From Polytrichum commune (Eukaryota; Streptophyta; Polytrichopsida; Polytrichales; Polytrichaceae): a DNA stretch of 64,000 nucleotides. Shown piece after piece: positions 3,001 through 40,400 of the stretch (its first letter is position 1; every line of letters begins with the position of its first letter). Position numbers and translations under genes: made by a program. Where the stretch lies: NCBI GenBank assembly GCA_950295325.1, contig OX485804.1:7564001-7628000 (forward strand). Direction: 5' to 3'. The notes beneath the pieces are model-generated. The model was not told where the DNA came from. It saw only the letters and a program-made list of their open reading frames with translations, and searched no databases.

Positions 3001-3870
3001 AGAGTGAGTGTGTGTGTGTGTGTGTGTATGGGTTGCACTTGTTGTGTGAAATGAATAATTGAGTGAGTGAGTGAGTGTGAGAGAGAGAGAATAAATGCTG
3101 AGGGGATAAGGTGTTGAATATAAAATTCATATGCACTAAAAGAGAGTCATTAGTAGTGGAGGCTGTGCTTCTTGTGAGTGGGTACTAGAGTAGAGGCGCC
3201 CATAACCGATTGCGTAAGAGGTTTTGTGTCAAGCTTGGAGAAGTGCAAGGAGGTGAATTTTTTTTCCCCATGTAGGAAGATGAAAATCAAGCGGACTGTA
3301 ATTTTATTGGTAATTTTATTCTTTGAATTGAAATTACTGTGAATATTTTAATCTAAAAGTTGGTTTGATCATACTACCAATGTCGAGAGTCTGTCATAAC
3401 TGTTTCATTTTAGATGTTTGTCCTTCCTCATTGTAGTGCTCAAAACCACGACACGTGTCATGGCACTATTGGTTCCGGCCCGATCGAAAGTTAATCCCAA
3501 CCTGATTGGAAATTCAATCTCAGCTTGATTGAGCTTGCCGTATCCTATAATTGGGGTCTTGATTGGGAATAGACACCTCTACTATACTAGTGACAAGATG
3601 CTTCAAGCAGTCCATTTCAAGTTTGCTCAACCTACACACAAGGGAGGGTGCTAAGTTACCGATTTCTTACTCACACAATGCGTTAATGTCACCTATTCTT
3701 GCGTTGTAAGTAAGGTTGACGTGTGGACTTGATTTTCTCTCCAAATTAGTAGGTTTTGTTTTGAGTTGAAAAGGTGTGTGTGAAAGTCCTTGAGCTCGTG
3801 TCATCATATTTGGACTAGTTCATCAACGAGAGGAGAGTGGATGATGAGTCTTAGGAGCGGCAAGTCAGCG
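1..3870. other. Intergenic AT-rich DNA, no gene recognised
   Basis: All open frames are short, lack recognisable domains and lie in AT-rich sequence. The stretch holds an 11-base G run at 161-171, an 11-base C run at 1463-1473, and an AAAT microsatellite near 1963-1976. I could not assign any part of it to a known transposon family. Confidence 0.6.
3005..3092. repeat. Compound microsatellite (GT)n, GAGT and GA
   Basis: A run of GT dinucleotides at about 3009-3027 is followed by several GAGT units and a GA run at about 3060-3090. It is visible directly as simple repetition and carries no coding potential. Confidence 0.85.
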
Positions 3871-28752: not shown

Positions 28753-29016
28753 ATCCTGACTTGCCAGAAGCTCCATCATCTTGTTCACAGCTTCGTCGTC
28801 TCCTGCGAGCTGCAGGTTTGCAGTAATCGCAGCACCTGGGATTGCAGCGTTTTCCTCACATGTGACATGTCCAAGCATATCCCCATCTATGCGCGCTATG
28901 GCAATTGACCATCACTGCAAGTCTTTCATGAACGGCAGATTCGAATTGGAGTTCTTTTGCGCATCTCGTTGATTCATCTCGAGGGTCAACTTAGGGTTTG
29001 CAAATTGCAATCCGTC

Positions 29017-29448
29017 ATGGCAGGAGTCTTGTCAGTCGCGGGATTGAAGGAATTGATTGCCAAGTATGGGAAAGTGGCTCTCGGTGTGCACTTATCTGTC
29101 TCGGCCGTATCGGTGACCGGTTGCTATGTGGCTATTAAGAATAATGTGGATGTGGGGGCTGTGTTGCAAAGAGTAGGTTTGTACAGCGAAAGCATTGAGA
29201 AAGAGGAGGCCGAAGATATTCTTAAGTATGAGGTTCTTGCAGTGGAAGGGAGTACGAGTGATGCTGGAACCGTGCCCGTAGAGGAGGATCGCAAATCCGC
29301 TGTGCAGGCTGCGGTTTCTGGAGGTGGTGCCATAGCTTTGGCATTTCTGTGCAACAAAGCTCTTATGCCCATCCGGATCCCCATCACTGTGGCCCTTACC
29401 CCTCCTATTGCCAGGCTCTTGGCACGGCGAAACTTGTACAAACCCTGA
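29017..29448 (+). CDS. DUF1279 (FAM210-like) small membrane protein
   Basis: This is an intronless frame of 143 residues. I chose the ATG at 29017 (GTCATGG context, MAGVLSVAGLKEL) because family members begin close to the KYGKVALGVHL motif. An in-frame ATG at 28957 would add 20 residues. The DUF1279 core is clear: residues 15-42 contain KYGKVALGVHLSVSAVSVTG, with a hydrophobic helix running to YVAIKNNVDV. A linker of about 45 acidic residues follows. A second hydrophobic stretch (about 98-135) covers GGGAIALAFLCNKALMP and IPITVALTPPIARLLARR. The related animal proteins FAM210A/B are mitochondrial inner-membrane proteins; for the plant member the organelle is not shown by sequence. Full length for the small plant subclass. 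Confidence 0.85.
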   Translation: MAGVLSVAGLKELIAKYGKVALGVHLSVSAVSVTGCYVAIKNNVDVGAVLQRVGLYSESIEKEEAEDILKYEVLAVEGSTSDAGTVPVEEDRKSAVQAAVSGGGAIALAFLCNKALMPIRIPITVALTPPIARLLARRNLYKP

Positions 29449-31825
29449 AGGTGGTAACCTAATCTTTGGATTTACAATTGGCAAATTCAACCCGAGTTCT
29501 ACACGCAAAGGCTTCTCTTGTGGCTGCTTTTGACGAAGAGATGATGCTTTTAGACAGTGAAGAAGAGCAGAGGATTGTATTCTCGTCCTGTTAAGTGGAA
29601 AGAGAGTGTACAAGGAAAGAAACGCAGAATTCGGCTGTGATTCGGGATTGGATTACAAATGTTCGTGGCACATCCGTTGCTGCCAACTTAGTGAGGAGGC
29701 CATGTTAGTTTCTTCACTCGGCCACTTTGTGAATATATAATTGACAGGCTTGGAAGCAGTGGTTACCCTTCTACATCCATTTGTTATGTTGTGCTGAGAC
29801 AGATAGGCTATATTGTAGCTTCTTTAGTGGTCTCTGTCTGCACGTAGTTGCCCTTCAGAGTTGGGTTTAATGCAACCTTCTGCAATTTTTTAGAGTTTGA
29901 GTTTCGAGACTTTCTCCTGTCTGATAGTTAGCCGTCACCGAAGATCTTAGGATGTTGCTTATTTCTTGTATAAGATGACTCTCAACTGAATTTTCTTCTA
30001 TATGAGTTGACATATGATCTCCTGAAACCCCAACCTCTACTCTTCAATTGTTCAACATAATCTGCAAACATGCACTGGAATATGTGAACAGGCGCTTGTC
30101 GTAGTAATTGCATTCCGAAAATTGGCTTGAAAAGGTTGTTGTCGAAGTTACGAAGCTAATCCTTGTAATTACGCTGCTCCAACGAATCCTATTGCTAATG
30201 CCCACATTGGAAATTGGGAGTTTGAAGACACTGTCAGATTCTTGGGACAGACTTTCCCTCATTTTTTACAATGAATGTTTGTGAACATTGTTCATGACTT
30301 TGCACCTTAACTCTGCTTCTCTTGAAATCTGAGTACGCTTGTGGAATGACCCATGTTGCAATGTTCTCCGAATGTTGATATAGAAAGTAGGAGAAACTGT
30401 GATCTGCAGAGACCATTGTGAAATCCTTAGCGGCCAAACTCGGGATGTTCCTTCATTTAAATTGCACCATATAGGTTATCGCAACTTTGGACAACTTCTA
30501 AACTTGGGAATGGCACATGTTTTGCAAATCTGTCACGGTGACCTTATTGCAGCAAGTTGCTGTAGAACTATTACGTCAAGTGACACGGGGGCATTAGGCA
30601 TGGGGGAAATTCCAATTCCCTATTGATTTTTGGTTCATTTCACCAAGTGGACGACACGTAGGAAGTGCCGCTTACATGAGAACTTGAAACAACATGTGGA
30701 TAGTTGTCTGTAGCAAGTACAGAAGACTGATCTCAAGTATTATGTTTTCCACCACAACACTTAGACTGCTTGAGAATGGAATGCGTCTGCCAAAGGAGGT
30801 TAGTTACCACATCACTTTGATGCTTGAGAAATGCCCTGCTTTCGAACATGCTTTGACGGAAGCAATTGACGAGTTCTTCCATATCGGATGACTTGCTGTT
30901 GCTGAGATACACATGATCATGATGATGAATCCTAGTATGAGTCTTGAATGGCATTGGCCATGTGTGAGGTCGACCTCTAAGAAGTCCTGAGTGATCATGT
31001 GCATCCTAGGATCCTATTGAGTGCTTCTTTCCGATAAGCAGCAACAATAGAATCATGGGTATACTCAATCTCACGTTGACACGTAGAGATGCTGGCACGT
31101 TGTTATCGACATTGTAAAAGTCATCCCTCGGCAGCTTTAGGTAATCAGTTGAGGATATTTTTAAAATCATCTTTTTAATGAGGGTGATCACATTGATCAA
31201 TGAAGTTCACAATTTTTTTTAATGTTTCCTAGCAATTAAATTCTTCCAGTTGTAAAATACTCTCCAATGTTAACGCGCCTCTGTTTCTTCAATTAGCTTC
31301 ATTGATTGTTTGTGGAGGCTGGAGAGGCTCTGCTTATGTTTACAGATTTTCAATTAGAGTTCAGGCACTTGTGGTGACTTTCTTATTGATTCTTGCTATT
31401 CCATGCTTGAATGTGGAATCAAGGGCTTTGAGTGGACCTAAACCCTAAACCCTAAAATAGAATGGATACTTCAGGAACTCCCATGCTACACCCAAGTATG
31501 AATGTTTGTGCAATTGGCAGTCCTCCAAGTACTCCATTCCATGTAGGATATGATTTGCTGGGGATTCCAAGTTCGCCCAGTTGATATTACGAAACGAAGT
31601 GCCAACGTCCTTACTCCAAATGCCGTGGTCACATCCTTGAAATTTGTTGAAGCTCTTGGGAGATGCATACATGATCACAATGATGAACCCAATTTTGAGT
31701 CTTGAATGGCAGTGGCCAAGTGTGAGCTCAACCCTCTAAGAAGTGCTGAGTGATCATGTGTATCTAATTATTAGGACTACTTCGGGCCACTTCACATACG
31801 AGACTGAGGGCCTGTGATCCCTGCA
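29449..31825. other. 3' flank of the DUF1279 gene and intergenic DNA
   Basis: The first few hundred bases are probably 3' untranslated. Two related segments of about 105 bp (30905-31010 and 31663-31770), both containing GAGTCTTGAATGGCA and GTGATCATGTG, belong to a dispersed repeat family. A telomere-like CCTAAACCCTAAACCCTAAA stretch lies at 31437-31456. No gene is recognised. Confidence 0.5.
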
Positions 31826-32257
31826 CTTCAAGCACTCTCATTGGTGGAAAAGGTAGACCCAGTCGAAGTTCGCTTCACACTATGCTTGACAGACCGATGG
31901 AGTAAGTGAATGCAAGATGAATATAAATCTATATGGATACATGGATCATGTTTCATGGTCACTTGGACTATTTTCAAAAACCACCTCTTGGAGGTAGGCC
32001 TAACACAAAACCGGGAGACCATGGCACTCCGAAATCTCATGACCATTGATTTATTATACTTTATCATGTGTGAGGACCCGTATCATTGAAATAGGATTCG
32101 GTTGAGGCACCTGGTCACATATGGCTTCACACTACACTTGAGAGCCCGTGATCACACTACATGATTTTAGAAGTGTCTTGTGGTGGCCTCTGGACACTTT
32201 CTTTTGGACTCTCACAATTTCATGGATACGGCTCTTGGCTCGTGTGTGAAGTGGCCC
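31826..32257. repeat. Dispersed repeat copy 1 (about 430 bp)
   Basis: It shares long blocks with 52933-53404 in the same orientation, from CTTCAAGCACTCTCATTGGT to TTGGCTCGTGTGTGAAGTGG. A partial inverted relative lies in intron 9 of the SLH gene (39005-39330). There is no coding content. It abuts the first U5 gene's promoter. Confidence 0.8.
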
Positions 32258-32319
32258 TCCTCACTCAACCCCTCGCTTTGCTGCCATACCTCCTTGCTAA
32301 ACTGAGCTGCCCCCCAATT

Positions 32320-32366
32320 GTCCCACATCGTTTGCCATGTGCAGGTAGCCATGACAAATAGATAAG
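32320..32366 (+). promoter_or_regulatory. U5 copy 1 promoter: USE and TATA-like box
   Basis: GTCCCACATCG at 32320-32330 is a perfect plant snRNA upstream sequence element. A weak TATA-like ATAGATAAG lies at 32358-32366, about 34 bases before the conserved CAGCCGGG at the RNA start. Confidence 0.75.
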
Positions 32367-32391
32367 CTCGACATTCACCGAGATCCTCACG

Positions 32392-32507
32392 CAGCCGGGT
32401 GCTCAGCACAGAGCGAACTATTCTTTCGCCTTTTACTAAAGAATACCGTGCGCTGGGTACACTTACCGGCATATCCCAATTTTTGGACTGCCCCTCTTGG
32501 GGCCCAA
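32392..32507 (+). ncRNA. U5: U5 spliceosomal snRNA, copy 1
   Basis: The invariant U5 loop 1 (CGCCTTTTACT, 32427-32437) is closed by TATTCTTT / AAAGAATA. CTCAGC pairs with GCTGGG, and GCCGG near the 5' end pairs with CCGGC. An Sm site AATTTTTGG (32478-32486) is followed by a CTGCCCCTCTTGGGGC 3' hairpin. U5 holds the exon ends together during both splicing steps. The start is set at CAGCCGGG by alignment of all copies and by distance from the TATA box, so it may be a few bases off. This copy has the best USE of the array. Confidence 0.9.
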
Positions 32508-33171
32508 CCAAGGAATTAAAAGCAGGAAATTACACGTGTGCCATGGGCAATTGAAGTGTCTCCAAAATGCGAGCCGAGTGCAAAGCGCCATCATGTCAAT
32601 GCTACGGCACAGTTGTCTTGTCAATTCTGCTTGCAAACTGGAACTTTATCTTGCAGTGCAAGCATAGTATTCACCAGATTGTAGCTAAGCCAAAGAGTAG
32701 GGAGGGAGATTAGGGAACGTCTGTGGATTGACCTAATCGAAATTGATTCGCAAGATCAGGTGTTGTGAAAATCCTGCGTTTCAAATTTTCCGCCTCTGAT
32801 CGGTTCTTGCCAGAAACATTGATGTTTTCCTCTTGTGCCGCAAGCAAAGTAGAGTCAGGGGAACCGAAATGCTGCAAAATGCTAGCGAACTGTAAAGCAC
32901 CAAGTTGGCACTACGGCACAGTTTCGCTTTCTCAGCTCTTTCTTGCAATTTGCAACTCCAAGCACAGGACTGAGATGTTTATCATAACCAAGTCAATTTT
33001 GAAATTGACTTTTGAAATCGATTTAGAGCGATTCCACTACTAAGTAAAATTTGCACCATTGAGATGTTCTGAAATTTCAATGGTCACAGGTCCTCAAGTT
33101 CTAGTGCAGAGTGCCCCAACTCACTTCGCTCACATCTCCTCAAAAACAAGATAGACAGCATCCCGGGAATT

Positions 33172-33210
33172 GTCCCATATCCATTGTGCGCACCTCTCAA
33201 TCGCATATAA
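33172..33210 (+). promoter_or_regulatory. U5 copy 2 promoter: USE variant and TATA
   Basis: GTCCCATATCC (33172-33182) is a two-base variant of the USE. TATAA is at 33206-33210, leaving a 23-base gap between the elements. Confidence 0.7.
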
Positions 33211-33239
33211 GGTCGCACACTTCCTCGTAGGAAATCACA

Positions 33240-33355
33240 CAGCCGGGTGCTCAGCACAGAGCGAACTATTCTTTCGCCTTTTACTAAAGAATACCGTGCG
33301 CTGGGTACACTTACCGGCATATCCCAATTTTTGGACTGCCCCTCTTGGGGCCCAA
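33240..33355 (+). ncRNA. U5: U5 spliceosomal snRNA, copy 2
   Basis: The RNA region is identical to copy 1 from CAGCCGGG through the 3' hairpin, including loop 1 and the Sm site AATTTTTGG. The promoter has diverged from copy 1. It looks intact and probably functional. Confidence 0.9.
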
Positions 33356-34025
33356 CCAAGGAATTAAAAGCAGGAAATTACACGTGTGCCATGGGCAATT
33401 GAAGTGTCTCCAAAATGCGCGCCAAGCGCAAAGTGCCTGTAATCAGGTGAGTACTACGGCATAGTTGTCTTGTCAATTGTGCTTGCAAACTGGAACTTTA
33501 TCTTGCACTGCAAGATATAGTGTTCACCAGATTGTAGCTAAGCCAAAGAGTAGGGAGGGAGATGAGGGAACGTCTGTGGATTGACCTAATCGAAATTGAT
33601 TCGGAAGATTAGGTGTTGCGAAGATCCTGCGTTTCAATTTTGCCGCCTCTGATTGGCTCTTGCCTGAAACATCGATGTTTTCCTCTTGTGCCTCAAGCAA
33701 AGTAAAGTCAGGGGAACCGAAATGCTGCAAAATGCAAGCAAACTGTCGAGCATCAAGTTGGCACGACGGCACAGTTTCACTTTCTCAGCTCTTTCTTGCA
33801 ATTTGCAACTCCAAGCACAGCACTGAGATATTTATCATTACCAAGTCAACTTTGAAATTGATTTTTGAAATCGATTTAGAGCGATTCCATTACTAAGTAA
33901 ATTATGCACCATTGAGATGTTCTGAAATTTCAATGGTCACAGGTCCTCAAGCTCTAGTGTAGAGTGCCCCTAACACATTTCGCTCACATCTCCTCAAAAA
34001 CAAGATAGAGAGCATTCCGGAGATT

Positions 34026-34065
34026 GTTCCATATCGATTGTGCGCAATGCTCAATCGGATATATA
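34026..34065 (+). promoter_or_regulatory. U5 copy 3 promoter: USE variant and TATA
   Basis: GTTCCATATCG (34026-34036) is followed after 23 bases by TATATA (34060-34065). Confidence 0.65.
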
Positions 34066-34093
34066 GTTGCACTCTTCCGCAACGGACGTCACA

Positions 34094-34211
34094 CAGCCGG
34101 GTGCTCAGCACAGAGCGAACTATTCTTTCGCCTTTTACTAAAGAATACCGTGCGCTGGGTACACTTACCGGCATATCCTAATTTTTGGACTGCCCCTCTT
34201 GGGGCCCAACC
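34094..34211 (+). ncRNA. U5: U5 spliceosomal snRNA, copy 3
   Basis: It has the same loop 1, stems, Sm site and 3' hairpin as copies 1 and 2. One substitution changes CATATCCC to CATATCCT just before the Sm site, outside the core elements. It is probably functional. Confidence 0.88.
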
Positions 34212-34877
34212 AAGGAATTGTAAGCAGGAAATTACACGTGTGCCATGGGCGATTGAAGTGTCACCAAAATGCGCGCCAAGTGCAAAGTGTCTGTCATCAG
34301 GTAAGTACTACGGCACAGTTGTCTTCTTAATTCTGCTTGCAAACTGGAACTTTATCTTGCAGTGCAAGCATAGTATTCACCAGATTGTAGCTAAGCCAAA
34401 GAGTAGGGAGGGAGATTAGGGAACGTCTGTGGATTGACCTAATCGAAATTGAATCGCAAGATTAGGTGTTGCGAAGATCCTGCGTTTCAATTTTACCGCC
34501 TCTGATTGGCTCTTGCCTGAAACATCGATGTTTTCCTCTTGTGCCGCATGCAAAGTAGAGTCATGGGAACCGAAATGCTGCAAAATGCGAGCGAACTGTA
34601 AAGCACCAAGTCGGCACTACGTCACAGTCTCGCTTTCTATGCTCCTTCTTGCAATTTGCAACTCCAAGCACAGGACTGAGATATTTATCATAACCAAGCC
34701 AATTTTGAAATTGACTTTTGAAATCGATTTAGAGCGATTCCACTACTAAGTAAAATTTGTACCATTGAGATGTTCTGAAATTTCAATGGTCACAGGTCCT
34801 CAAGCTCTAGTGCAGAGTGCCCCAACTCACTTCGCTCACATCTCCTCAAAAACAAGATAGACAGCATCCCGGGAATT

Positions 34878-34916
34878 GTCCCATATTCATTGTGCGCACC
34901 TCTCAATCGCATATAA
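34878..34916 (+). promoter_or_regulatory. U5 copy 4 promoter: USE variant and TATA
   Basis: GTCCCATATTC (34878-34888) is followed after 23 bases by TATAA (34912-34916). Confidence 0.65.
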
Positions 34917-34945
34917 GGTCGCACCCTTCCTCGTAGGAAATCACA

Positions 34946-35063
34946 CAGCCGGGTGCTCAGCACAGAGCGAACTATTCTTTCGCCTTTTACTAAAGAATAC
35001 CGTGAGCTGGGTACACTTACCGGCATACCCTAATTTTTGGACTGCCCCTCTTGGGGTTCAACC
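34946..35063 (+). ncRNA. U5: U5 spliceosomal snRNA, copy 4 (variant)
   Basis: Loop 1 and the Sm site are intact. Differences from copies 1-3 are CCGTGAGCTGGG for CCGTGCGCTGGG in the stem, CATACCCT before the Sm site, and GGGGTTCAACC after the 3' hairpin. It may be an expressed variant or an early-decaying copy. The spacer downstream also diverges from the other units soon after AAATTACAC. Confidence 0.82.
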
Positions 35064-35454
35064 AAGGAATCATAAGTAGGAAATTACACTAAAGTGATGT
35101 ATTTAGCGGTGTTGGGTATCTTATATCACTTTGGTAACATTTCTAATCACGCTTCTTATGAATTAAAAAGTCTACATCTTAAAACACACGATTGAGATAC
35201 TTGGATGATACCTTTACCGAAGTAAATTTTGGAACTGATATTTTGAAATGGATTTGGAGGGATTGCATTACAAAGTAGAACTTTGCACCATTGGGATGTT
35301 TAGAGAAAATTCTTAATGGTCATGGGCCCTCAAGCTCTAGTGTAGAGTTGCCCCTAACTCACTTCGCCCATATCTCCTTAAAAACATGATGGAGAGCGTT
35401 TCGGGTATTATCCCATATGAATTGTGTCCACCTCTCAATCGCATATAACGTCAC

Positions 35455-35515
35455 ACCGGGTGCTCCGCACAGAGCGAACTATTCTTTCGGCTTTTACTAA
35501 AGAACACCGTGGCCA
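35455..35515 (+). pseudogene. U5 snRNA copy 5, 3'-truncated
   Basis: The 5' half is recognisable (CCGGGTGCTCCGCACAGAGCGAAC), but loop 1 is changed to CGGCTTTTACT and the stem to AGAACACC. After CCGTGG all U5 similarity stops, so the Sm site and 3' hairpin are missing. USE-like ATCCCATATGA (35410-35420) and a TATA box (about 35443) remain. It is a dead end-copy marking the right edge of the array. Confidence 0.85.
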
Positions 35516-35519
35516 ACAC

Positions 35520-35899
35520 AATAATCTTAAACGGGAGGACATAACGTAAACGAAGCAGATGTGGATACTAATTTCTCTAGGAATCAAAAATGGGACTTGA
35601 AGTACATCAAGATGGGTTCAAACCAGGTAATTAGCCTCCGTGAGAAAAGAGGCTCAACTTGATGGTCCAATCGAAAGGAAAGGTTTGAGGTTCCCAAGTA
35701 TAACACTCTCAAACAATGATGGAAACTTATATGTAATGGGGGTATATAAGGGACACTCCAAAAGAAAGCATGGATCATTTTCAATTGCATTATAAGAAAA
35801 AGGAAAAAATTGACACAATCTGTTAGCTCTAGAGATAGGGATAGTCGACCATCCTCCAATTTCAATGGCAAGTCTATGATTCGATGTCAGGTAAGCCAC
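35520..35899 (-). mobile_element. Non-LTR-type reverse transcriptase C-terminal remnant
   Basis: On the minus strand the reading YLTSNHRLAIEIGGW, IPISRANRLCQF and AIENDPCFLLECPLY, with FPSLFESVILGNL, has the arrangement seen after the RT domain in LINE-like polyproteins. A frame change separates it from the following LDHQVEPLF. It is the same family as the remnant at 19068-19475. It begins where the truncated fifth U5 copy ends, so this insertion or a linked deletion may have cut that copy. Confidence 0.55.
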
Positions 35900-36492
35900 A
35901 ATAATCTCTCACGTTGTGGCGGGGTCAATGATTGCCTCAGTAGTTCACCTATGTTTGATTGATATGTGGTTGGATGTGTGGCTTCAAAAACAAATACTAA
36001 AAGAACATGTGTCCATAAAAAATTGGACCGCGTGCTCATAACATGATAATCATGCTATGTGCTCAGTAGTCAACAATTTGGGGGGGGGGGGGGTATATGA
36101 CCATTTAACGAGCATGAGAAATTTCACTTTGATAATGAATAACACATTCATATGAGCTCTAAAAGTTACGATGAAACTGATGTCAACCTTGATTTGGAAT
36201 TGCTAACCATCTTATACTAAATTGCATGTTTCTTTTTCTTAGGAGAAGTGGGGGGAGTAAAAAAAAAGTAACCATTTAAGACCCATCTACCTTAGAACAA
36301 TAATACCAACAACTGGACCTTAGAAGCTATCATAACTAGGAGCGTGGGGGACATAAATTTATCATGTTAACCTAATGGTTCCATATTTCATTTCATGATA
36401 GAAAGGAAAGTAGCACTTGGGTACCTGCAAATCAGAAAATCAAGATTAAAAAAACGTCTCTATATTTTAACATGAAGAATCTGGACATCAAC
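35900..36492. other. Intergenic DNA
   Basis: There is no coding frame or structured RNA. A 14-base G run lies at 36080-36093. Confidence 0.6.
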
Positions 36493-36564
36493 TCCGTTGT
36501 AGTCTAGATGGTTAGGATACTCGGCTCTCACCCGAGCGACCCGGGTTCGAGTCCCGGCAACGGA
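36493..36564 (+). tRNA. tRNA-Glu (CTC anticodon)
   Basis: A full 72-nt cloverleaf is visible. The acceptor stem TCCGTTG pairs with CAACGGA. The A box lies in TAGTCTAGATGGTTAGGA. The anticodon stem CTCGG/CCGAG encloses CTCTCAC with anticodon CTC at 36527-36529. The T arm contains GGGTTCGAGTCCC. There is no intron and no encoded CCA, as usual for nuclear plant tRNA genes. No T-rich terminator follows at once: the next bases are AGCTCCCGAG, part of a tandem duplication. Confidence 0.95.
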
Positions 36565-36832
36565 AGCTCCCGAGAAAAATATAGACTACCCTTTTCAAAT
36601 TTTTGCGAAAGGAGTTTTAGGTCAGGAGACAACCATAGTTTGTGGTTGGGGATACAGTCTTACCTCCCTAATATCACGTCTGTGGCAGACAAAGTGCAAG
36701 CTCCCGAGAAAAATATAGACTACCCTTTTCAAATTTTGGCGAAAGTAGTTTTAGGTCAGGAGACAACCATAGTTTGTAGTTAGGGATACACTCTTACCTC
36801 CTTAATATCACGTCTGTGGCAACCGAAGTGCA
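36565..36832. repeat. Exact-period tandem duplication after the tRNA
   Basis: AGCTCCCGAGAAAAATATAG at 36565 recurs at 36699, giving two units of 134 bp with only a few differences. The first unit starts directly at the tRNA 3' end, so only the tRNA-flanking DNA is duplicated. Confidence 0.9.
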
Positions 36833-37495
36833 GGTGGAAATATTTGCATTGAGAACATTTGTCACTGCAGAATGTGCTATGCATATCCACCACTGGAGGT
36901 TTTGTGATCTACATTATTACTCACCAGAATGGAAATCAGAGGTGATCTGCTGAACCTGGAATTTGAGCAATTCTACACCCATAATTTACATACCTTCGCT
37001 TCATACTTCTTGCCTCTTTACAAGCAGCTAAAAACTAGCTTCGTGCTCACTGCCCCTTCAGGATAAGCGTAAGAGTATAGCAATTCGTCTGAAGTGTCTG
37101 ACTTATGGTTGGCAACACTGTTGTCTTTCAAATTCAATAATTTTCAAGGCCTGCAAAAGTCACCTGTATGGGTATGCTTCACAATGCAACAGACAATCTA
37201 AGGCATAGCATGTGTAGAACACTGCAAACATTCCTGCTTTTAATACCAGAGATTAAGTGCCTTTCCCAGAATGCTAGAATTGGCAGATGCGCTTGCCTTG
37301 TGCGCTTCTGGAAAGCACCCTTCCATTATCACAAAGATTGGTGTACCCCTTTCACAGTTCCAGTGGCTTCTCAAGGGTAAGACCCAACAGTCTTATATTA
37401 TATTCAACAGAAAGACCTGCTGCAGATACTGCCAGTTGACCCAGCTAGACACTTTGAATGTGCTAACCACATAAGTGATATCTGGAGTCAAAAAC
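36833..37495. other. 3' flank of the SLH gene
   Basis: This probably contains the 3' untranslated region of the minus-strand gene ending at 37496. No other coding or RNA feature is seen. Confidence 0.5.
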
Positions 37496-40400
37496 TCAAT
37501 CATGCTTGAAACGTTGTGCGAACTTCTCAGCCTCACCCCTGCATCCATCAGCAAACCTCTTTGTCCCATTTACGGCACCTGATGAAATACCTGCTACTGT
37601 ACCCTGCAAGTTTCGAAAGCTGTCAGATGCAACAGACACTGCGCCCTGCAGTCTGTGACCTGCAGATGAGAAGGTATCATGCTGCAGTTGAAGGATCTTG
37701 GTTCTTAAAAGCAGTAACAAGTCTACAATCTTCTGTAGAAAAGCCTTTAGTACATTTTCGATTGCCTGCCAAGATTGAACCACAGAATGGTTGACCTTGG
37801 ATTTTAGGTCTTCACCCCTAGCCATCACATCTTGGAGAGGAGCCCGCTGAAGAAACTTTTCAAGTTCAGTTTTAGGCCCACTGTATCGCCAACTTGGGCC
37901 AGGAATGTTATCTTCATCAAAAGCCTTGTCCACACTAACTTCAATCCCTCGACTTGCCCAGCGTTTCCTGGCTGCTTCAAGAACTTTAGCTTGTGCTCGT
38001 GCTTTCTGAGCTTCATCCTCTGCCCACAATCTGCAAACAAGGACCCACATCAGGTTACATCCACTATCAGATTATCTTAAAATCTTAAAATTTTAACATT
38101 TTACAAGTACATTACAAATACATTAAAAACACATTACAAGAGGATATGGCCTATTTAGAGAGAGTCAGAAAAATCTGCATTTGCAATTTCTCTTTTATCT
38201 GCTAATCATTGAATAACAAAGCTTTCACATTTAATTCTCAATTTGAAGCGCCTTCCACAGATGTATATTGAGCATGTCTAAATTCTTGGTACACAGACAA
38301 GGAGAGGAGAATGTCCTATCGCTACTTTGAGTAAATTACAAGAGAAGGAGATGAGGATCAGTTGAAGGATATGAGAGACATCTACCTGGCCAACATAAGA
38401 GCTTTCTTCTCCACATCGACTTCTGTCTTCAAGGAGGATACTCTTTCTTCATCCTCTTCAGCTTTTAATCTGAGCTTTTCTAGTCTCTCCTTTTCATTCA
38501 AAGCTTCCACTCGGTGCAAGGATAATTCCTGGAGCTGTTCATCTACCTCTTGCTTTAGTTGATGAAGAAGCTCCTTCTCTGATTCAATTGCCGCTCGATC
38601 CTTCAACAGTGAATCCTTCTCAGAATCTCTTTCATATTTTAATTTTTCTAACTCAGCCTTGACTTCCTCAAAGAGATTGTCTGTCTGCTCTCTCTGTTGT
38701 TTCTCTCTCTCCAATTCTCCATTAAATAGTGCATGAACTTCCTTTTGAGCACGAGCTTCCATGGCAGCATCAGCCGCAACAGCTTCTTCAGCCATTCTCT
38801 CTGCTTCAAGCCTGGTTAATTCCTCTGCAAGCTGATCAGAAGTATCCCCCGATGCAAGGGCAATTGCTGCCTGCCCAACTGTAACGGCCTTATGAGGCTG
38901 GAACCTCCTTGTGAACCCTGAACAGCAGGCACCATCAATGTACAAGAGGAAAGAGGAATAGTAACAACAAAGAGGAATAGTACACACTTACAGGAGTTTC
39001 TCACAAACTCATTTGTGGGACTGAAGGCCACTTTACACTATGGCCAAGACCTATGACCATGAAATTGTGAGGGCCCTTGACACTCATTTGAAGGCCAAAC
39101 CATGGAGAATTCTACACAATAACTTATATTTTTAAAACGGTTGTGAGATTTTCAAGTGTTATATTCTCCTGGTTTTGTGCTAGACCCACCTCTATGAGGT
39201 GGGCTTGAAGCAAATCCATTCGACCATGAAACATTATCCATTGCATGCCATATAGGACATCATGTAGGTTTTTCATCCATTCAAATTTCCTTGGTCCCTT
39301 TAGGCCCTCAAGCTCTAGTGTAAAGTAACCTTCATTCCTTGTAGACAAAGTCCATGTGATATATTTACCCAGGACCATATTCCCTGGATCCAGGTAACCT
39401 CCCTACCTGGGAAATTGGAGGAGGTACTGAACTGGGAAATCTAAGAGTTAGGGTATCCTATGAAACAGTGTTTCCACTAGAACCTAGATGCTCACAACTA
39501 GACTCGGTGTTAGATGTTTGTTTTAAAGGAACAAGACTGAGTAACAACTTGATAGATAATGCACATACCAAATGCAGAGGCTATGATGCTGTTGTCCCCA
39601 GAATAGAGATCAGCAATTATTGCTGGCCACACCCTGCTTTCAATTCGATCCACATCAATAAAACCTGATTGTGCCTGAAAAGCCTGTGGCAAAGAGTACG
39701 ATATTCTATTTAATCAGTTCTAATCCGGATTAAATATTTGAATTGCAGAATTGAATTATTCCACGCAACACATGACTGTTGCCTCTCACCTCCTTATCAA
39801 GTGCAGGTAAGGGACGTCGATCAAGAGCCAGTTTCCAGCTCACAAGGTCTTGCCTTGTCAATGGACTGCAACAACAAATTGATAATTCTTAGTATAATAA
39901 ATATGTATGCATTCTTGTCCTGCCTATATAACTCATCTTATCTATTGTAGAAGTATGTAGCATATGTACAAAAATAGGTAGAAGAATGTCACAAAATGGA
40001 ACATTTTAGAAACTGCAATTTCACTAGAATACAAAACTAGCTGAGAATTCTGATACACTGAAGTTCGTTGCATACCTATCAGGACCAAAAACAACACCAT
40101 CAAACTCATAGTCAGCTACCGAACTAGTAGCACCCACATCCGTGTGCAAGAGATTGCTAGGTATTAATCCGGCTTCTGCTAGACCTGCACCCACATCATT
40201 TCAATTAATCTCAGGACATGTGCAGAATACAAGCGAAGAACTCTAAAATCGCACATGTAGGAACATTCTTTGCCCACATACTAGAAAAATACAAATGTGC
40301 ATTGGAATCTATCAAGCAAGGTCGTTCATTGCAGCTTATTGTTGCATAAGATGCAGCAATAGCAAGGGCAGTGTGCATGACTGTCACCTTGAATGTAGGC

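Follow-up and report, generated by a model that had tools for sequence, protein, structure and literature searches.

Are the members of a tandem array of U5 small nuclear RNA (snRNA) genes maintained alike, and are they read alike? The question is raised by a locus of Polytrichum commune on contig OX485804.1 (C2 in our numbering), in a stretch of 64,000 nucleotides (C2:7564001-7628000) that we call the window and whose first letter is position 1. The locus is a tandem array of U5 spliceosomal snRNA genes. We are confident in an overall reading in which this is one local array among at least 25 U5 loci and would have arisen by unequal crossing-over with partial gene conversion while selection held the RNA fold. 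The array itself is mostly ordinary; one promoter feature is unexpected, namely the short gap between the upstream sequence element (USE) and the TATA element in copies 2-4.

Four U5 genes in head-to-tail units

When the 64-kb window was scanned with cmscan, Rfam family RF00020 (gathering cut-off 40 bits) gave four full-length U5 matches (model positions 1-117, 96.2-96.5 bits, E about 1e-15), all on the plus strand; above the cut-off there was one transfer RNA (tRNA) besides, and no other family. The genes, and what follows them, are:

32393-32505, plus strand: U5 snRNA gene copy 1 (RF00020, 96.2 bits), loop I intact, Sm site AATTTTTGG at 32478-32486
33241-33353, plus strand: U5 snRNA gene copy 2 (RF00020, 96.2 bits), RNA identical to that of copy 1 (0/113 differences)
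34095-34207, plus strand: U5 snRNA gene copy 3 (RF00020, 96.4 bits), differing from copies 1 and 2 at 1 position
34947-35059, plus strand: U5 snRNA gene copy 4 (RF00020, 96.5 bits), differing from copies 1 and 2 at 5 positions
35228-35455, plus strand: older relic of a fifth unit, from its promoter side, 75-83% identical to the units, with USE-like ATCCCATATGA at 35410-35420 and TATAAC
35456-35511, plus strand: truncated fifth U5 copy, a pseudogene, 5' half only, 95% identical to copy 1 over 56 nt

All four genes have loop I (CGCCTTTTACTAAAG; invariant form GCCUUUUAC) and the Sm site AATTTTTGG. A 3' hairpin follows the Sm site in each of the four model alignments, and it also appears when copies 1 and 4, the two chosen for folding, are folded; for copy 1 the folding energy is -41.4 kcal/mol (z -3.66). 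The units start 848, 854 and 852 bp apart, with 507 bp from the fourth to the fragment. A preliminary description made from the letters had proposed four intact U5 genes and one truncated copy, head to tail at about 850 bp with conserved spacers, and the covariance model and the measured spacings bear this out; the array falls inside the interval 32392-35515 given there. Ungapped 300-nt blocks are indeed mostly 89-94% identical between units, the lower values being 71% at the start of copy 1's own promoter and 74% in one other block. The truncated copy appeared in a permissive Rfam scan of 29000-39000 as a U5 fragment at 35470-35511 (model positions 18-59) of 34.2 bits, below the cut-off; its loop I has changed from GCC to GGC (GGCUUUUAC), and its fold is no better than those of shuffles (z -0.38).

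Relations within the array and across the genome

Within the array, the differences in the RNA are few and lie outside the helices. Copy 4 differs from copy 3 at four positions; copies 3 and 4 have T at RNA position 85 where copies 1 and 2 have C, and the other variants of copy 4 are at positions 59 (an A unique among 47 aligned copies), 82, 111 and 112. All five changes of copy 4 fall in unpaired columns of the predicted fold, and no paired column varies among the array's copies. The spacers differ at 41/531 positions between copies 1 and 2, at 32/531 between 1 and 3, and at 41/535 between 2 and 3, a gapped divergence of 6-8%. The RNA has diverged less than the spacer between copies 1 and 2 (Fisher p 4e-4) and between copies 2 and 3 (p 3e-3), in tests that used spacer counts of 40/500 and 41/494, slightly smaller than those just given. 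Over promoters of about 135 bp, copies 2 and 3 differ at 23 positions, and their RNA is conserved relative to the promoter (p 5e-6); the region upstream of copy 1 differs from that of copy 2 at 44 of 79 aligned positions. The preliminary description had copies 1-3 almost identical in the RNA while spacers and promoters drifted: the near-identity and the spacer drift hold, and so does promoter drift for copies 2 and 3, but the promoter of copy 1 is unrelated rather than drifted, and copies 2 and 4 do not follow the pattern (promoter 2/135, RNA 5/113).

Informative sites in the three spacers switch in blocks: of 56 neighbours, 28 are alike where shuffles give 18.5 (p 0.005), and the longest run of like sites is 8 (p 0.011). 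This suggests exchange between units. In the 3' flank, copies 1 and 2 have 68 of 69 nt in common (p 0.047 against the spacer). The relations among its units make the array a mosaic, of a kind to be expected from unequal crossing-over and from gene conversion under selection.

Selection on the RNA is seen in a wider alignment, comprising 47 U5 copies of at least 78 bits (46 distinct rows). Paired cells make up 97.5% of 1426, against 34-49% when the partners are slid, although this percentage is favoured by a consensus structure predicted from the same alignment. Changes on both sides occur at 7 of 31 pairs (27 cells), with 0 of 500 shuffles as high, and this covariation shows selection on the U5 RNA fold. 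Of the 47 copies, 46 have an intact loop I, and the Sm site takes the forms AAUUUUUGG (13 copies), AUUUUUUGG (11), UUUUUUUGG (11), CUUUUUGG (8) and others (4), some without the leading A. The earlier suggestion of RNA under selection or gene conversion is therefore supported on both counts, the first by the covariation among the 47 copies and the second by the clustered spacer sites.

The genome searched amounts to 407.8 Mb, nearly all of it in C1 to C7 (77.9, 70.3, 59.2, 59.1, 52.9, 44.7 and 42.1 Mb), and all genome-wide snRNA counts given here are lower bounds. A DNA search with the array returned 78 matches, itself included; in the own-genome search for the U5 family all 47 of 47 scored candidates were above the cut-off, and Rfam scans of 30 fetched loci and the window gave 82 U5 matches of at least 40 bits. 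At least 61 copies of at least 66 bits lie in 25 loci (of 9, 8, 7, 4, 3, 3, 3, 3, 2, 2, 2 and 2 copies, plus thirteen singles), and the window array is therefore one of a family. In this count copies up to 20 kb apart were joined, those below 66 bits were left out together with loci L009 and L010 (repeats of L008), and the RNA-identical copies C5:43147064 and C5:43176355 were taken as two. Corresponding searches for U1, U2, U4 and U6 gave 42, 46, 37 and 43 matches. Within a locus all U5 copies share one strand except at C5:23.75 Mb, and there a weak U2 match (52.2 bits, cut-off 46; C5:23.755 Mb, positions 3278-3409 of locus L019) stands among the mixed-strand U5 copies.

Among 48 clustered copies, the best match of the RNA lies in the same locus for 16.2, against 2.8 in shuffles, and that of the promoter for 28, against 2.6; the window's four RNAs are each closest to one another, and promoters of different loci are on average 53% identical. 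Two loci on the same contig are close relatives of the array: C2:1.67 Mb has 1161 bp in common with it at 89%, and C2:5.48 Mb carries the array spacer at 84-87% and the tRNA stretch at 94%, so that common spacer, tRNA and unit sequence unite the three in one family. The U5 gene at C2:5481455 has eight RNA changes relative to copy 1, six unpaired and two pair-keeping, none of which breaks a pair. Its RNA differs from that of copy 2 less than its spacer does (p 0.02 with the copy 2 spacer, at 84%; the copy 1 spacer, at 87%, would weaken the contrast). The gene at C2:1675244 may be decaying, since two of its pairs are broken. In the C2:5.48 Mb spacer (positions 1604-2460 of locus L015, minus strand), repeated ACTAGATTGTAGCTAAGCCAAAGAGTAGG variants lie just past what appears by eye to be the end of a protein gene, and the array spacer may come from the 3' flank of such a gene.

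Promoter spacing and how the copies may be read

Upstream of each gene stand a TATA element and a USE, the latter perfect in copy 1 and with 2-3 mismatches in copies 2-4 (the gap runs from the end of the USE to the start of the TATA element):

32258-32392, plus strand: promoter of copy 1, USE GTCCCACATCG at 32320-32330 (-73) with 0 mismatches, TAGATA at 32359-32364 (-34), gap 28
33172-33211, plus strand: promoter of copy 2, USE GTCCCATATCC at 33172-33182 (-69), TATAAG at 33206-33211 (-35), gap 23
34026-34065, plus strand: promoter of copy 3, USE GTTCCATATCG at 34026-34036 (-69), TATATA at 34060-34065 (-35), gap 23
34878-34917, plus strand: promoter of copy 4, USE GTCCCATATTC at 34878-34888 (-69), TATAAG at 34912-34917 (-35), gap 23

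The TATA element is at -34 or -35 in every copy, that of copy 1 (TAGATA) being imperfect, and the remnant of the fifth unit has a gap of 23 when counted by hand from the letters. Among the 47 aligned U5 copies, 26 have a strict USE (at most two mismatches) at -90 to -52 and 33 a TATA-like element; the six control windows each gave no USE in any of the 47, and a TATA-like element in 0-2 of them.

For comparison of gaps across the genome we used the USE core CCCAYA, because the strict form RTCCCACATCG undercounts and many promoters have CCCATA. The better-scoring matches were taken (15 of 42 U1, 20 of 46 U2, 18 of 37 U4, 25 of 43 U6, and U5 from 78 bits), and rows without a clear core or TATA were excluded (5/15 U1, 5/20 U2, 5/18 U4, 5/47 U5 and 7/25 U6). 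Among the excluded rows are copy 3 itself, which has a mismatch in the USE core, and one U4 at 22 and U6 at 30 and 17, which had poor TATA calls. The called gaps are 27-30 in U1 (10/15), 29-34 in U2 (15/20) and 27-30 in U4 (13/18), that is, at least 27 in 38 of 38 called genes of these three classes (53 examined), and 24 or 26 in U6 (18/25). In U5 the gap is 27-41 in 38 and 21-23 in 4 of the 42 called (47 examined), counts that are not independent, many rows being related copies of one array. The four short-gap genes are copies 2 and 4, C2:5481455 (23) and C2:1675244 (21). Among called genes, then, gaps shorter than in U6, a polymerase III gene, are confined to one U5 family. By its gap of 28, copy 1 falls in the polymerase II class (at least 27 among called genes), and copies 2-4, at 23, do not. 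A review places the USE of plant U6 and U3 promoters one helical turn nearer the TATA than in polymerase II genes (PMC9845283); here the difference between the two classes is no more than a few bp of gap.

How, then, might the array work? It would have grown by unequal crossing-over, with its copies partly homogenised by gene conversion and selection holding the RNA fold. The U5 RNA would be made by polymerase II, cut near the 3' hairpin, bound at the Sm site and used in the U5 small nuclear ribonucleoprotein. We infer that copy 1 is the safest candidate for expression, since it combines a perfect USE with the spacing of this genome's polymerase II snRNA genes. Copies 2-4 probably still yield U5, using promoters of an older type in which the spacing has shortened: the changes at C2:5481455 break no pair and those of copy 4 are all unpaired, and for this reason the short-gap genes are probably still in use.

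Several observations weigh against this reading. The USE of copies 2, 3 and 4 departs from RTCCCACATCG at 2, 2 and 3 positions, against 0 in copy 1, and their gap of 23 lies outside the range of the genome's other called U5, U1, U2 and U4 genes. None of copies 1-4 has the angiosperm 3' box, CA(N)3-10AGTNNAA, whose strict form occurs in only 7 of 47 genomic copies. Between copies 2 and 4 the direction is reversed, the RNA being less alike than the promoter, albeit not significantly (p 0.25). The promoter of copy 3 is closest to that of C2:1675244 (0.84) and not to those of its array neighbours (0.80). Finally, mean RNA identity is 0.869 within loci and 0.857 between them; such near-equal values do not favour strong genome-wide homogenisation of arrays, and homogenisation of the copies would be only partial.

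We dropped a reading based on the 3' box, as the motif is rare across all U5 copies of the genome. The hexamer GCAGGA occurs within 50 nt past the RNA in 11 of 47 copies, copies 1-3 of the window included, against 0.5 expected from shuffles, and may reflect either the shared descent of related copies or a local 3' signal.

It could be that only copy 1 works and that copies 2-4 are passengers, their promoters damaged or wrongly spaced, which conversion from copy 1 keeps similar. Copy 1 alone has the perfect USE and the 28-bp gap, against 2-3 mismatches and 23 bp in copies 2-4; the near-complete agreement of the 3' flanks of copies 1 and 2 is what a conversion tract would leave, and the two broken pairs of the short-gap gene C2:1675244 would fit a passenger. 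Yet the same short promoter stands at C2:5481455, at a distance of 2.1 Mb, and the eight RNA changes of that gene leave every pair intact. Together with the unpaired changes of copy 4, this suggests selection on the short-gap genes themselves, and we consider the passenger explanation unlikely, though it deserves to be taken seriously.

Copies 2-4 might instead be read by polymerase III, whose products would stop at internal T runs and yield short RNAs, non-functional or regulatory. Their gap of 23 (21 at C2:1675244) is indeed nearer the 24 or 26 of U6 than the 27 or more of other called snRNA genes, in line with the closer USE of plant U6 and U3 promoters (PMC9845283). Their TATA, however, is at -35 as in other U5 genes, against about -30 in U6, and copies 1-4 and C2:5481455 all retain the RNA fold. 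Polymerase III is, moreover, expected to stop at the run of five T (T5) in the Sm site, so that a simple switch of polymerase would kill the gene; we therefore prefer polymerase II with relaxed spacing, and regard transcription by polymerase III as improbable. No better placed would be the idea that a U5 lineage lost 4-5 bp between USE and TATA and now belongs to the polymerase III spacing class with a selected U5 RNA retained, which we would treat as a long shot. That a single U5 gene was multiplied by misassembly is hardly credible: part of the C4:5.21 Mb array does recur at C4:5.26 Mb and on C50, maybe as redundancy, but the window's spacers are 6-8% divergent, copy 1 has a promoter unrelated to those of copies 2-4, and U5 arrays are found on other contigs.

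In that recurrence, the partial U5 array appears three times (L008, L009 and L010: C4:5.21 Mb, C4:5.26 Mb and contig C50) with equal scores and spacing. The two places on C4 are 47.5 kb apart, C50 is 48.7 kb long, and each of the three RNAs compared has one and the same sequence wherever it occurs; the array may have been duplicated recently, or the assembly may be redundant here.

Neighbouring features and comparison with known snRNA genes

Around the array lie the following features:

28909-29448: open reading frame (ORF) with a FAM210 domain; on the other side of the array, minus-strand ORFs from 37496 on
30919-30994 and 31675-31753: box C/D small nucleolar RNA (snoRNA)-like copies
31784-32257, unstranded: transposon-like element of 474 bp, with 19-bp terminal inverted repeats GGGCCACTTCACATACGAG / CTCGTGTGTGAAGTGGCCC, arms 95% complementary
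32506-33105, unstranded: spacer 1, in which a stretch of 31 nt occurs twice, at 32560 and 32872
36493-36565, plus strand: tRNA-Glu(CTC) gene, from the Rfam scan

The transposon-like element ends 135 bp upstream of copy 1. Its part from 31900 to 32258 matches at least 39 other places at 82-86% (among the 40 scored of 3276 candidates), nearly all of which stop at about 32258, and the same element family appears as a 79-nt match at 85% in the C2:5.48 Mb unit. In the genome search the copy 1 promoter (32259-32392 alone) matched only itself. To judge from its sequence, this promoter is unrelated to those of copies 2-4 and adjoins a high-copy transposon.

The two snoRNA-like copies are 756 bp apart and both carry CCUCUAAGAAGU; their matches to SNORD61 and snoU61 are weak, at 29.9 and 34.1 bits, below the cut-off, and they may be a pair of U61 snoRNAs in tandem, close to the array on its upstream side. 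Immediately past tRNA-Glu, in 36564-36831, a 134-bp stretch has a tandem second copy at 93%. Elsewhere in the genome, dynein heavy-chain exons gave 13 matches, 12 of them above the cut-off, and swimming sperm are therefore expected. Together with seven chromosomes, C1 to C7, this would fit a moss; Polytrichaceae have n = 7.

Other snRNA genes are also found side by side in this genome. At C3:8.12, C7:15.66, C2:14.75 and C2:16.93 Mb (L021-L024) a U4 gene is preceded on its own strand, at 1.4-1.7 kb, by a U5 of low score (49-68 bits), and in the last of these a U6 stands before this U5-U4 module; at C2:11.48 and C2:12.95 Mb U1 and U6 genes are about 0.5-2 kb apart on the same strand. Arabidopsis, according to the available part of its description, has 14 U5 copies, all said to carry USE and TATA, with one tandem U5 duplication, U5.1 (PMC545797). 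As in that account, U5 genes here are multicopy, have USE and TATA and have been duplicated in tandem; they differ in number, with at least 61 (of at least 66 bits) in 25 loci and up to 9 per locus. The clusters named in the same part of that source are U1-U4 and U2-U5, whereas here U5 stands beside U4 at four loci. Set against the plant polymerase II snRNA promoter (PMC9845283, PMC5079582), copy 1 carries USE and TATA at a distance that falls within that of U1, U2, U4 and U5 genes here, whereas copies 2-4, with a gap of 23, lie below called U6, and the angiosperm 3' box is unrecognisable. Tandem or linked small RNA genes occur in other eukaryotes, for example U3-U5 in Euglena (PMC2784804); here there are many small, dispersed U5 arrays. 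A literature search judged by titles or the beginnings of abstracts found no published moss U5 array.

In summary, the array extends the known pattern of clustered U5 genes to a plant in which they are numerous and often clustered. Within one array, it sets paired natural promoters, with gaps of 28 and 23 bp, before identical RNAs. This pair lets the spacing rule for the choice between polymerase II and polymerase III, derived from Arabidopsis, be tested where the two classes differ by few bp. If polymerase III-class spacing does stand here beside a polymerase II promoter, the array would provide either a natural test of that rule outside the flowering plants or U5 copies read by polymerase III.

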